From Bacteroidia bacterium (lineage in GTDB: Bacteria; Bacteroidota; Bacteroidia; M30B66), in NCBI GenBank assembly GCA_018401705.1, contig JAGYKL010000032.1, positions 1-32,407 on the forward strand: DNA of 32,407 bases, in the 5' to 3' direction. The notes beneath the pieces are model-generated. The model made no database searches, was not told where the DNA came from, and worked only from the letters and a program-made list of their open reading frames with translations. This document shows positions 27,919 through 32,407 of this stretch, in pieces; within the stretch, counting starts at the first letter, position 1; each line of letters starts with the position of its first letter. The translations under genes and the position numbers were made by a program.

Positions 27919-29369
27919 ATGCCAATGGCTATACACTGGATAGACTTATCAATTTTTATAATTTACATAATAGTAATGTTAGGCATTGGTCTACATTATT
28001 TTAGAAGAAACACCTCTGCTGAAGATTATTACGTTGGTGGCAGGTCAATTAAAGCCTGGCATGTTGGTTTATCAGTTGTTGCAACTGACGTCGGTGGAGG
28101 ATTCTCTATCGGACTAGGAGGTTTAGGTTTTGTAATAGGAGTTTCGGGCTCTTGGATGCTTTTTACTGGTCTTATTGGAGCATGGTTAAGTTCTGTCTTT
28201 CTAATACCACGCGTGTTTGAGTTATTGAAGAAAAAATCATTAACAACATTTCCAGAGGTATTAGGTGTTTTGTTCGACAAACGCGTAGCTTTTGTAGCTG
28301 GTATAATTTCATTAATTGGATATTTAGGCTTCACAAGTTCTCAGCTTCTTGCAGGGGCAAAACTTGCATCTGCTACTTTTAATGGTATTTCGCTCCAATC
28401 ATCAATTTGGATTATGGGAGTAATTGCTGTTGTTTATACTGTTTTAGGTGGAATGAAAGCGGTTATTTACACTGATACTGTTCAATGGATTATTCTCTTC
28501 TCAGGACTTTTTTTATTGGAATACCTTTTGGCTATTATGCATTAGGAGGATGGGAAGGCCTTGCAAAATCGCTTCCTAAATCCCATTTTGGCTTAAGCAA
28601 CATTGAACCCGTTCAATTAATCAATTGGGCAATTACAATTATTCCTGTTTGGTTTATTGGTATGACTTTATACCAAAGAATTTATGCTTGTGGCTCAGTG
28701 AAATCAGCCAAAAAAGCGTGGTTCATTGCTGGATTATTTGAATGGCCTGTGATGGCATTTTTAGGCGTTACCTTAGGAGTGTTTGCTAAAGCTGCTTTAG
28801 TGCAAGGTCTTTTCGCATCCTCCGGATACCTTGAAGTTGGCTCTCTAGATCCCGAAATGGGCTTGCCTCTATTTTTAGCTACCGTTTTACCCACAGGCTT
28901 AATGGGATTGATGATGGCTGCTTATTTCTCGGCTGTGCTTTCTACTGCAGATAGTTGCCTGATGGCTGCCTCTGGAAACCTAGTAGCTGATATTATCAAG
29001 CCTTTCAAGAAAATGCAGGAACATACAGAGTTAAAAATTTCTCAGTTTGTTACATTAATCCTTGGTACTGTGGCTGTTTTACTCGCTAGTACCATGCAAA
29101 ATGTGCTTGAATTAATGCTAATGTCATATGCATTTATGGTCTCGGGCCTTCTTGTTCCCGTTATATCAGGCTTTTTAGTTAAGCAACCTTCAGCAAATGC
29201 CGCACTCTCTTCGATGATTGCTGGAGGAAGTGTAACACTTTTACTAATAATCTTAAAAATAAAACTCCCTTGGAACCTCGATGCCAATGTTTTTGGTCTA
29301 ACTAGTTCTGCAATAGTGTATTTAATTGTTCAGAAACTTGATAAGGCCCGAATGACTAATAATCAATAA
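27919..29369 (+). pseudogene. Sodium:solute symporter (SSS family), split by a frameshift
   Basis: Two overlapping frames form one symporter. The first (27919 onward) has N-terminal helices and family motifs ([34 protein letters not shown]) but goes out of frame at a run of seven T (28508-28514) and stops at 28545. The second frame continues at the same point ([13 protein letters not shown]) through S-A-V-L-S-T-A-D-S-C-L-M-A to 29369. With eight T the gene encodes 483 residues, normal for SSS carriers (about 13 helices) that import organic solutes with Na+. The start is ATG 27919 or 27925. First gene of the operon with the acyltransferase, amidohydrolase and racemases, so it probably imports their substrate. 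Real disruption, slippage rescue and sequencing error are all open. Confidence 0.88.
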
Positions 29370-29379
29370 ATATAATTCT

Positions 29380-29817
29380 ATGGAAATAATTACTATGAAA
29401 CCTGATGAGCTTTATGATGAAATCAAGCTTAAAGACATTAACAATTTTCTTTTCGAACACTTAGGTAAATATGGCGATCCGAAAGAGCAAATCCGGATGG
29501 CTATGAACTATGCCTTAAGCAAGCAAAAGGGTAGAGGTGGTGTGATTATTCTTGCCGAAGAAAATAATAAGATCTTAGGTGCAGTTGTGGTTAATGAAAC
29601 TGGCATGGATGCTTATATACCAGCTAATATACTAGTCTATATTGCGGTTGATGAATCACAACGAGGAAAAGGTATTGGCAAAAAACTAATGGAAGAAGCT
29701 ATTACCCAAACCGCTGGTGGTATTGCACTTCATGTTGAACCAGATAACCCCGCAAAGAAATTATACGAGAAGTTAGGCTTTACAAATAAGTATTTGGAAA
29801 TGAGATTACAACAATGA
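29380..29817 (+). CDS. GNAT family N-acetyltransferase
   Basis: A 145-residue single-domain GNAT enzyme that would transfer an acyl group from CoA to an amine. Motif A, with the pyrophosphate-binding loop, is I-A-V-D-E-S-Q-R-G-K-G-I-G (88-100). Motif B follows with A-L-H-V-E-P-D-N-P-A-K-K-L-Y-E-K-L-G-F (117-134), typical of amino-acid-type acetyltransferases. It starts 10 nt after the symporter and its stop overlaps the amidohydrolase ATG by 4 nt. This position suggests it N-acylates the imported substrate or product that the neighbouring deacylase handles, but the acceptor cannot be predicted from sequence. Confidence 0.9.
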   Translation: MEIITMKPDELYDEIKLKDINNFLFEHLGKYGDPKEQIRMAMNYALSKQKGRGGVIILAEENNKILGAVVVNETGMDAYIPANILVYIAVDESQRGKGIGKKLMEEAITQTAGGIALHVEPDNPAKKLYEKLGFTNKYLEMRLQQ

Positions 29818-30929
29818 TTGATTCTGCTGAATTCAGGAAGAAATTACATGCTTTAGCCGAATTGTCGGGAGAAGAGAAAATAAGCTCGCAGACAATTGCT
29901 GAAGACTTAAGGGAAATTCCTTCATTTTCAATTAAACAAGTTGGAGGCTATAGTATTCTTGCTTCTTCAAGCCCTTCGGGCGGATTCCTTTTAAGAGCTG
30001 ATATTGATGCATTGCCCATTAGCGAGGAGCATCTCAATCTGCAATATGCTTCAAAGAATCTTGGTGTTTCGCATAAATGCGGACATGATGGCCATTCGGC
30101 AATCTTACGAGGTACAGCTCATGAAATAAGCAATTTGCTAATTAAAAAGCCTATACATTTCTTATTTCAAGCATCAGAAGAAAACGGCAAAGGTGCTCCT
30201 GCCGTCCTGAACGATAATTATTTCAAAAATGTGGCTCCAGATTTCGCTTTTGGTATGCACAATATTCCAGGAAAACCTTTGGCTGAAGTATTAGTAAAAA
30301 AGGGAATTATCACAACAGCAGTTGTCACTTTAATAATAAGAATTCATGGGGTTTCAGCGCATGCATCATCCCCCGAAAGGGGAATTTCTCCTATTCCCGC
30401 AATAACTGGTTTACTGACATTTAATCAGGAACTACTTCAACAGAAATCAAAGTATGCTTTAATTACACCAACTTATATTATAGTTGGCTCAGAATCAAAT
30501 GGCACAGCTCCAGGCGATGCTCAAATCAACCTCACGATTCGATGCCACGAAACAAGCTTTCTCGTTGAAATTTGTCAAGATATTCAAGCTGAGTTAAACA
30601 GAATTTGTAATGTAGCAGGTTTGAAATTTTCAGTTGATGAAGAAGACAGATTCGATGCTTGTTTAAATGATAGCGCTGCAGTTGATTTGCTTTTGGATGC
30701 CTCATCAAGGGCTGGTCTTGAAGTTAATATGCTCGATGAGCCTTTTCCTTTCGGTGAAGATTTCGGAGCTTATTCTCAAGTTATTCCATCCTGCTTTTTC
30801 GGCCTTGGGGCCGGAATAAATCAGCCTCCATTACATCATCCAGATTATGATTTTCCAGATGAGCTAATCGAACCTGCAGTGAAATTATGGAGATGTCTAA
30901 TTAATAAGGATTTAAATTATATATTATGA
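29814..30929 (+). CDS. M20 family metallo-amidohydrolase (N-acyl amino acid deacylase type)
   Basis: A 371-residue member of the M20D/amidohydrolase group, which removes acyl groups from amino acids or cleaves small amides using two metal ions. The metal ligands are visible: H-K-C-G-H-D-G-H with Cys89 and His91, E-E-N-G-K-G (Glu122/Glu123), G-M-H-N (His149) and a C-terminal H-H-P (341-342). R-A-D-I-D-A-L-P-I is at 61-69. A dimerisation lid holds G-V-S-A-H-A-S-S-P-E-R-G. There is no signal peptide, so it is cytoplasmic. The substrate could be an acetyl amino acid, an aminobenzoyl or hippurate-like amide, or a peptide. ATGA overlaps on both sides tie it to the acyltransferase and the racemase. 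Confidence 0.9.
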   Translation: MIDSAEFRKKLHALAELSGEEKISSQTIAEDLREIPSFSIKQVGGYSILASSSPSGGFLLRADIDALPISEEHLNLQYASKNLGVSHKCGHDGHSAILRGTAHEISNLLIKKPIHFLFQASEENGKGAPAVLNDNYFKNVAPDFAFGMHNIPGKPLAEVLVKKGIITTAVVTLIIRIHGVSAHASSPERGISPIPAITGLLTFNQELLQQKSKYALITPTYIIVGSESNGTAPGDAQINLTIRCHETSFLVEICQDIQAELNRICNVAGLKFSVDEEDRFDACLNDSAAVDLLLDASSRAGLEVNMLDEPFPFGEDFGAYSQVIPSCFFGLGAGINQPPLHHPDYDFPDELIEPAVKLWRCLINKDLNYIL

Positions 30930-32074
30930 ATGAGACATCAGAGATTAACTTATTGAATGACAGTCTTTTAAATAATATTTCGTTCGTTAGAAAGCAAATC
31001 CATAAAGCAACAGAGCTATGTGCGGTTGTGAAGGGGAATGCTTATGGTCATGGAATTGAAACTTTTGTTCAAATGTTGCTTAACAATGGTGTTACATCCT
31101 TTGCAGTTTTTAGTGCTGATGAAGCTAGGAGGGTTAATTTAATGCTTCCTATTGGTTGCCGCCTAATAATTATGGGCGATTTGGATGAAGCAGCGCTACC
31201 TTGGTGCATTGAAGAGAACGTAGAGTTTTATGTTTTCTCATTTGAAAGACTCAAGCAGGCGATAAGAGTATCCCACGAAAGTGGAAAGAAGGCAAGGATT
31301 CATATTGAATTGGAAACGGGAATGTACAGAACTGGTTTTGACGATACCAATATGCCAGAATTGTTAAGCTTACTTGACTCAGCTAGAGAATTTATTCATT
31401 TGTCAGGCTTATGCACTCATTTTGCCGGGGCCGAACTCATTGAGAATTTTGATAGAATACAAATTCAGGCGGCTAATTTTACTGCAGGAATTGAAGAATT
31501 TCAAAAGCAGAATCTTATTCCGCAAACGGTTCATGCGTGTTGTTCTGCTGCAATGATGAGAATTCCAGAAATGCACTTTGATTTGGTGAGGGTGGGGATT
31601 TTACTTTATGGTTTTTGGCCATCCAAGGAAATGGCTATTGAATATTCAACATTACATCCTTCAGAACCCAATCCTTTAAGACGAGTAATTCAGTGGAAAA
31701 GTAGGGTAATGAGCATCAAAAATGTTCCTGCAGGCTCTTGGATTGGCTATGGTGAAAGTTTTGCCGCCAGAACTAACATGAAAATTGCAATTATTCCAGT
31801 TGGTTATGCTCACGGCTATGCCAGATCATTAAGTAATTTTGGCCAAGTGTTAATTCAAGGTGAAAAGCTGCCGGTTTTAGGACTTGTTAATATGAATTGC
31901 ATTTCTGTTGATGTAACCCTTCTTAATGACATTGCTGTGGGTGATGAAGTGATGTTGATTGGCAAGCAGGATGATCAGGAAATATCTGTGGCTTCCTTTA
32001 GTGAACGTTCAGAACAGTTGAATTATGAATTACTAACAAGATTGCCTCATAGTATCCCAAGAATCTCAAACTGA
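30926..32074 (+). CDS. Alanine racemase homologue (fold-III PLP enzyme)
   Basis: A 382-residue alanine-racemase-family protein. The PLP lysine is in A-V-V-K-G-N-A-Y-G-H-G (Lys36). The opposite catalytic tyrosine is in W-I-G-Y-G-E-S (Tyr275), so both bases of the racemisation reaction are kept. E-L-E-T-G-M-Y-R-T-G-F follows the usual Alr pattern for the PLP-contacting Arg. Differences from ordinary Alr are G-Y-A-H-G-Y (His296 where Asp is usual), V-N-M-N (Asn324 where M-D is usual) and a short N-terminus without the standard E-I-D-L-x-A start. The gene may supply D-Ala for the cell wall or racemise another amino acid. The operon context with deacylase, acyltransferase and transporter favours a specialised substrate, so I give no gene symbol. 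Confidence 0.9.
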   Translation: MNETSEINLLNDSLLNNISFVRKQIHKATELCAVVKGNAYGHGIETFVQMLLNNGVTSFAVFSADEARRVNLMLPIGCRLIIMGDLDEAALPWCIEENVEFYVFSFERLKQAIRVSHESGKKARIHIELETGMYRTGFDDTNMPELLSLLDSAREFIHLSGLCTHFAGAELIENFDRIQIQAANFTAGIEEFQKQNLIPQTVHACCSAAMMRIPEMHFDLVRVGILLYGFWPSKEMAIEYSTLHPSEPNPLRRVIQWKSRVMSIKNVPAGSWIGYGESFAARTNMKIAIIPVGYAHGYARSLSNFGQVLIQGEKLPVLGLVNMNCISVDVTLLNDIAVGDEVMLIGKQDDQEISVASFSERSEQLNYELLTRLPHSIPRISN

Positions 32075-32076
32075 TT

Positions 32077-32407
32077 ATGGCTTACATAGAAATAAATACA
32101 ATAAAGCTGGAGCATAACTTTCGTTTCCTAGACAAAAGATTTAAGTCAGCAAACATTGAGTGGGCAGTGGTTACCAAATTGCTTTGTGGCCATATGCCAA
32201 CTATTGAATTATTGGCAAAATTGGGCGCAAATGAAATGTGCGATTCTCGTCTTTCTAATATAAGGAAAATAAAAAAGAAGTTTCCCAACATCCAAACTGT
32301 ATACATAAAGCCTCCAGCAAAGCAAAGTATCTCCAACATAGTCAGATATGCAGATGTTTCATTTAATACTCAATATCAAACATTAGTATGGTTAAGTGAA
32401 GAAGCTG
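32077..32407 (+). CDS. Alanine/ornithine racemase family PLP protein (3' end outside window)
   Basis: An ATG 2 nt after the racemase stop opens a frame that runs to the window edge (110 codons). It starts M-A-Y-I-E-I-N-T-I-K-L-E-H-N, the racemase beta-barrel opening, with the predicted PLP lysine in A-V-V-T-K-L-L-C-G-H (Lys34), then M-C-D-S-R-L-S-N-I. The T-K-x-x-C-G and D-S-R-x-x-N-I pattern matches the ornithine-racemase-like branch rather than Alr. The catalytic acid/base in the C-terminal half is not visible. It is the second racemase-type gene in the same operon. Short unspaced linkage to the previous gene indicates co-translation. Confidence 0.85.
   Translation, partial: MAYIEINTIKLEHNFRFLDKRFKSANIEWAVVTKLLCGHMPTIELLAKLGANEMCDSRLSNIRKIKKKFPNIQTVYIKPPAKQSISNIVRYADVSFNTQYQTLVWLSEEA

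Follow-up and report, generated by a model that had tools for sequence, protein, structure and literature searches.

Gene content of the locus

We analysed a stretch of 32407 bp from a Bacteroidia genome assembly (contig JAGYKL010000032.1), hereafter the window, which is the entire contig. Its last part carries, on one strand, genes for an SSS-family symporter, a GNAT acetyltransferase, an M20-family amidohydrolase, a stand-alone alanine-racemase-like enzyme (here ALR2) and the start of a second pyridoxal 5'-phosphate (PLP) racemase related to ornithine racemase (here ORR) (Table 1). All five families were confirmed using Pfam and NCBIfam models. GNAT and M20 overlap by 4 nucleotides, as do M20 and ALR2, and a gap of 2 nucleotides separates ALR2 from ORR. 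Coordinates and family searches thus bear out the order, strand and junctions given in an initial annotation, which had been made from the letters alone. For the symporter and the Orr-like gene, the annotated families and strand held as well, but neither gene is intact: ORR is truncated after 110 amino acids because the contig ends there, and the symporter is frameshifted.

Table 1. Genes of the operon in the window, and loci in relatives with additional neighbouring genes.
Feature	Position	Strand	Family evidence or description
SSS symporter	27919..29369	+	PF00474 on both halves; closest model PutP
GNAT acetyltransferase, 145 amino acids (core gene)	29380..29817	+	PF13508, 2.8e-16
M20-family amidohydrolase, 371 amino acids	29814..30929	+	PF01546, 9.4e-29; TIGR01891
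ALR2, stand-alone alanine-racemase-like enzyme, 382 amino acids	30926..32074	+	PF01168 and PF00842; TIGR00492
ORR, Orr/COG3457-like PLP racemase, first 110 amino acids (core gene)	32077..32407	+	NF040742, 2.8e-19 (fragment)
Oxidase/proline-racemase neighbour loci	L029:13422-18800, L030, L042, L045:4385-6652

More specifically, the symporter is spread over two open reading frames (27919-28545 and 28485-29369) that together encode one SSF protein, with PF00474 matching the N-terminal half at 8.5e-27 and the C-terminal half at 5.5e-15. The split results from a single-base shift at a run of seven T (28508-28514). A second genome of the genus has this gene unbroken (482 amino acids), in the order SSS-GNAT-M20-ALR2 up to the contig end, and we therefore attribute the frameshift to a recent lesion or to an error of assembly. 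Intact orthologues in relatives measure about 480-490 amino acids and score 141-160 bits against the Na+/proline symporter model PutP (TIGR02121), whose cut-off is 515.5. The Bacteroidota promoter pattern TTTG-N17..23-TAnnTTTG was absent before the operon, and its sole match in the window lies elsewhere, within chance expectation.

Co-occurrence across genomes reveals two modules

The distribution of these genes was assessed in 395 genomes of the class, after setting aside three divergent ORR matches and two weak GNAT paralogue matches. ORR was found in 50 genomes and GNAT in 52, with 49 genomes holding both, one ORR alone, three GNAT alone and 342 neither (Fisher's exact test, p = 9e-58, relatedness ignored), a grouping far beyond chance. 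In all 49 genomes GNAT lies upstream of ORR on the same contig and strand, at distances ranging from 2 nucleotides to 4.1 kb. ALR2 was present in 40 genomes, a count that includes two contig-end fragments assigned by position; every one of them has GNAT and 39 have ORR. The single ALR2 genome lacking ORR is a metagenome-assembled genome (MAG) of 73% completeness whose contig ends in the operon.

The association extends to genomes where the genes are physically separated. ALR2 is unlinked from ORR in 13 genomes, yet ORR is present in every one of these. These 13 genomes, together with an additional Salibacter copy, give 14 ALR2 loci outside the operon, and 11 of them have M20 immediately upstream of ALR2. 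A further 17 genomes were chosen solely because they showed M20 and ALR2 as a pair with no ORR close by; 15 of them carry ORR at another place, and the two misses include a 2.1-Mb MAG. Conversely, 11 ORR genomes have no detectable ALR2. The five genes are therefore a two-module system, with a core, (SSS)-GNAT-ORR, that is able to stand alone and an accessory M20-ALR2 pair that depends on the core; the genomes holding the two modules coincide even where the modules are unlinked. The second Salibacter halophilus copy of ALR2 (L145, G012:C5:143003-144148) is unlinked and has no adjacent M20.

We then considered gene order at 68 distinct ORR loci, collected from the class-wide search and from an M20 scan that yielded 80 loci in titled genome records. 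On the same strand as ORR, GNAT is a neighbour at 66 loci, SSS at 52, M20 at 46 and ALR2 at 44. The full five-gene set occurs at 37 of the 68 loci in several different orders, the commonest joint orders being SSS-GNAT-M20-ALR2-ORR (22 loci) and GNAT-SSS-M20-ALR2-ORR (11 loci). Salibacter halophilus, for example, has the complete operon in the same order as the window. The loci span Flavobacteriia, Cytophagales, Bacteroidales, Saprospiria, Balneolia, Ignavibacteria and one deltaproteobacterial MAG. Shuffled orders argue that the set is held together by function and not by shared descent of one stretch. Furthermore, genomes with and without the set stand side by side in many families (e.g., f1, f2, f4, f8, f14, f19, f28, f33, f38 and f54 in our numbering), so that repeated gain or loss of the set as a unit is likely. 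This five-gene set, whose core is carried by about one eighth of the sampled genomes of the class, comes and goes as a unit and, with no description of it found, points to an unrecognised amino-acid pathway. The comparison across genomes proposed in the initial annotation thus yielded a conserved association.

ALR2 represents a distinct subfamily of alanine racemases

ALR2 contains both alanine racemase domains and scores 283.2 bits against TIGR00492 (cut-off 168). Its catalytic residues Lys36 and Tyr275 are kept, as are the equivalents of the alanine racemase (Alr) positions Lys39, Arg136, Arg219, Tyr265, Tyr284, Arg290, Met312 and Tyr354. Among these, Tyr265 is the second base, Arg136 the carboxylate arginine, Arg219 the partner of the PLP nitrogen and Tyr284/Tyr354 the gate. 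The PLP lysine, Tyr265 and Tyr354 are kept in all 22 ALR2 sequences compared.

Two acidic positions depart from this conservation. Alanine racemases conserve two aspartates that are salt-bridged to one arginine (PMC10288493). At the first, Asp313, ALR2 has Asn (Asn324 in the window) in 22 of 22 sequences, whereas all 8 MurF-Alr-type domains compared, taken from these or related genomes, have Asp. At the second, located in the GYADG motif and assumed to correspond to Asp285, nearly all ALR2 sequences have His, Ser, Tyr or Asn. The Asp-to-Asn change at position 313 occurs naturally in broad-spectrum racemases, and when introduced at the corresponding Asp322 of Mycobacterium tuberculosis Alr (Asp313 in G. 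stearothermophilus Alr) it lowers affinity for D-cycloserine 240-fold (PMC10288493). ALR2 shares this Asn with Bsr/Bar but not the small residue that replaces Tyr354 in them. The broad-spectrum racemase Bar and the lysine racemase Lyr do not keep the gate Tyr354 (PMC3485190), and because ALR2 does, unlike them, a small substrate is the better guess for this enzyme.

Full-length ALR2 members score above 500 bits and one partial member 409, against about 260 or less for MurF-Alr-type proteins in the same search. Together with the residue pattern, these scores mark ALR2, at the level of sequence, as a specialised subfamily apart from the housekeeping MurF-Alr. The source genome also holds an 823-amino-acid frame of the MurF-Alr type with an Alr C-terminal domain (G000:C89) and, because this separate protein exists, ALR2 would not be needed to provide D-alanine for the cell wall. 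Plain D-alanine supply, which the initial annotation had named as an outcome that would count against its reading, was rejected in view of the separate MurF-Alr-type protein and the ALR2 subfamily pattern. ALR2 is also of interest to enzymology, as its natural substitution falls at a site that influences D-cycloserine binding in M. tuberculosis Alr.

ORR is an Orr-like racemase of fold-type III

The best curated match of ORR is ornithine racemase, and the corresponding model NF040742 aligns over the full length of ORR orthologues. Nevertheless, three full-length orthologues reach 333.9, 275.5 and 289.4 bits and the window fragment 69.4 bits, below the cut-off of 480. The AlphaFold model of ORR (predicted local distance difference test, pLDDT, of 92) has a complete alanine-racemase fold, with barrel and C-terminal beta domain, and superimposes on 4luy_A with Z 27.6 and a root-mean-square deviation (rmsd) of 3.2 over 328 aligned residues, and on Escherichia coli YhfX (PDB 4kbx) with Z 25.1 and rmsd 3.5 over 307 residues. 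Sequence searches returned no PDB match for ORR, which makes it a second racemase subfamily of interest to enzymology, one with no findable solved sequence relative.

Lys34, the PLP lysine, and Arg217, at the PLP nitrogen, are invariant or nearly so in ORR, and Lys34 aligns with Lys36 of ALR2. ORR and ALR2 are members of the fold-type III PLP superfamily, and in both of them the PLP lysine is retained. The position of Tyr265 is occupied in ORR by a non-conserved residue (Asn, Ala and others), in a stretch where the profile alignment is weak.

Acetyltransferase and amidohydrolase

The AlphaFold model of GNAT (pLDDT 95) has among its nearest folds the N-alpha-acetyltransferases NatC/RimI/Ard1, with Z up to 17.0. 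Ranks 1 to 50 of the comparison span only Z 17.0-15.1, so the predicted fold leans toward N-alpha-acetyltransferases and does not discriminate among GNATs. M20 scores 188.4 bits against TIGR01891 (cut-off 153.75) and carries the metal-binding motif HKCGHDGH and SEEN. Its nearest solved relative is YxeP (1ysj, 3.7e-34). It also resembles the N-acetyl-diaminobutanoate deacetylase DoeB2, at a score far below the DoeB2 cut-off of 550.

A proposed pathway and its alternatives

Taken together, the five genes probably serve to take up an amino acid and invert its stereochemistry. D-amino acids originating in cell walls and aged organic matter make up a large pool that is used slowly, and Bacteroidota rank among the main degraders of this matter. 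We tentatively favour, at somewhat less than even confidence, a two-module system for amino-acid salvage and stereo-inversion in which acetylation and deacetylation give direction, with every catalytic step assigned from family membership. The Na+ symporter would import an amino acid; its likeliest form is the D-enantiomer, or a mixture of D and L, from peptidoglycan or aged organic matter. ORR would interconvert the enantiomers of this amino acid. GNAT would then acetylate one product with acetyl-CoA, on the alpha-amine or, if the substrate is basic, on the side-chain amine, pulling it from the racemase equilibrium. M20 would remove the acyl group, and ALR2 would turn the amino acid so released, or else another amino acid of small size, into the enantiomer that is put to use. 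Bracketed by acetylation and deacetylation in this way, two otherwise reversible racemases would gain a direction. A PLP racemase requires a free alpha-amine, and for this reason acetylation is placed after racemisation or on a side-chain amine. The initial annotation had proposed uptake and stereochemical conversion of an amino acid or N-acyl amino acid; this proposal is partly supported, in that the data favour one conserved five-family system with non-housekeeping racemases, and uptake and inversion are the natural reading of its parts.

Several points weigh against salvage with directed inversion. In this assembly the SSS gene is disrupted, and 16 of the 68 ORR loci lack it. The core works without ALR2, as the 11 ORR genomes without detectable ALR2 indicate. 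A product acetylated on its alpha-amine would lie outside the ORR route, acetylation and deacetylation encoded in one operon could be futile, and the target of GNAT could be a protein or an unrelated small molecule.

The system may instead produce or remodel D-amino acids, converting an imported L-amino acid into a non-canonical D-amino acid destined for export, for editing of the wall or for use as a compatible solute, with acetylation serving storage, export or protection. Racemases run both ways, the Asn of ALR2 is natural in broad-spectrum enzymes (PMC10288493) and an M23 peptidase gene follows ORR at three loci, all of which would fit such a role. We nevertheless consider it unlikely: most operons include an importer and not an exporter, ALR2 keeps the small-substrate gate that Bar and Lyr have lost (PMC3485190), and relatives show no conserved ligase, exporter or wall-transferring enzyme alongside the operon.

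Rather unlikely, too, is a pathway built on the side chain of a diamino acid, in which SSS would import lysine or ornithine, GNAT would acetylate the side-chain amine, ORR would racemise the product and M20, a relative of the ectoine DoeB and ArgE-type deacetylases, would deacetylate it. An amino acid acetylated on its side chain is usable by a PLP racemase, since the alpha-amine stays free, which speaks for this scheme together with the ornithine racemase match of ORR and the DoeB2 resemblance of M20. Both of these similarities, however, fall short of the respective cut-offs (276-334 bits for ORR orthologues), the symporter is nearest to a proline carrier and lies far under the cut-off of that carrier's model, and no ornithine or lysine catabolic gene is conserved beside the operon in relatives.

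A detoxification role, in which ALR2 would be an analogue-tolerant racemase and GNAT would N-acetylate D-amino acids that are toxic or analogues of D-alanine (D-cycloserine, for example), would account for the invariant Asn of ALR2 against the invariant Asp of MurF-Alr, given the effect of the same change on the M. tuberculosis enzyme (PMC10288493), and for the loss of the second aspartate in most ALR2. It appears improbable, as a dedicated symporter importing a toxin makes little sense, M20 would reverse the acetylation, ORR would have no role and the housekeeping MurF-Alr retains its Asp.

Finally, a loose housekeeping cluster, with ALR2 as a spare D-alanine source, M20 in general peptide turnover and GNAT as an unrelated modifier, could be imagined since all the families are common and Alr and M20 are widespread, but it is very improbable and already contradicted by the co-occurrence, ALR2 never being found without GNAT in the 395 genomes although unlinked in 13, GNAT lying ahead of ORR, on one strand, in all 49 genomes that have both and a separate MurF-Alr-type protein being present.

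Comparison with known systems

The known operon closest in logic to the salvage system that we favour is the yxe/scm operon of Bacillus subtilis for S-(2-succino)cysteine, which combines an importer, a GNAT, a conversion step and an M20 deacetylase (PMC9706529). Both operons pair a GNAT and an M20 deacetylase with an amino-acid importer; the importer is of the ABC type and the conversion is by a monooxygenase or lyase in yxe/scm, whereas here an SSS importer accompanies two racemases. By analogy, yxe/scm provides a precedent for an operon that acetylates, acts and deacetylates, and its YxeP is the closest solved relative of the M20 described here.

ORR resembles Orr/COG3457 (NF040742) and YhfX in its full-length model alignment, its PLP lysine and PLP-nitrogen Arg and its fold. 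It differs from Orr in scoring under the cut-off and in its partners, which are GNAT, M20 and ALR2 and not the D-ornithine aminomutase genes. ALR2, likewise, keeps the main active-site residues of Alr, MurF-Alr and Bsr/Bar, and is set apart from Alr and MurF-Alr as a stand-alone protein of a separate subfamily in which Asp313 is invariably Asn and the GYADG Asp is mostly replaced. RacX of Halocola, also considered, is a different racemase, modelled on EcL-DER.

In the DgcN-DgcA pathway for D-glutamate, the DgcN step is an N-acetylation. The dgcN route has been called an irreversible racemization pathway (PMC12363236) and is also discussed in PMC10845958. It offers a precedent for racemisation made irreversible through acetylation, and the pathway proposed here would resemble it in inverting an amino acid in one direction with the help of acetylation. 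Unlike it, the operon in the window has no DUF1611 or enolase-fold epimerase gene, nor is either conserved in orthologous operons, and its racemases are PLP enzymes that require a free amine. In its boldest form, the proposed pathway would be an acetyl-CoA-driven, one-way racemisation route in Bacteroidota and a PLP-based counterpart of DgcN-DgcA, fed by a Na+ symporter, with two PLP racemases of different specificity, an acetyltransferase/deacetylase bracket and an ORR that possibly uses an unknown second base; we regard this as possible but doubtful.

The gene set was not found described in a search covering part of the literature (Orr/COG3457/YhfX, Bacteroidetes lysine racemase, DUF1611-racemase and acetyltransferase-symporter operons). 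The families are known, and their combination appears new.

Divergent loci and neighbouring genes

The initial annotation had suggested looking for DUF1611, dipeptide epimerase or D-amino-acid oxidase genes as companions; these proved not to be part of the operon in relatives. DUF1611 occurs only beside divergent ORR, in two genomes, where a compact cluster DUF1611-ORR-M15 peptidase (D-Ala-D-Ala-type) contains an ORR scoring 264-292 bits to the ORR profile (L093:5422-8238 and L094:6442-9256). This cluster is another case of an acetyltransferase paired with a racemase, here in the company of the peptidase. Another divergent ORR (L095:6379-8036) overlaps by 4 nucleotides an upstream GNAT of a different type (197 amino acids), with a large open reading frame about 3 kb downstream.

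Genes next to the operon in relatives suggest a link with amino-acid stereochemistry and perhaps with the peptides of peptidoglycan, as context clues and not as proof. The M23 peptidase gene lies directly after ORR at two Balneolota loci and one other (L020:4684-5307; L086:8542-9156, assigned by clustering with L020; L128:4138-4842). In Tenacibaculum and one related MAG, proline-racemase- and D-amino-acid-oxidase-family genes of a D-hydroxyproline-type oxidation pathway adjoin the operon in two arrangements (Table 1).

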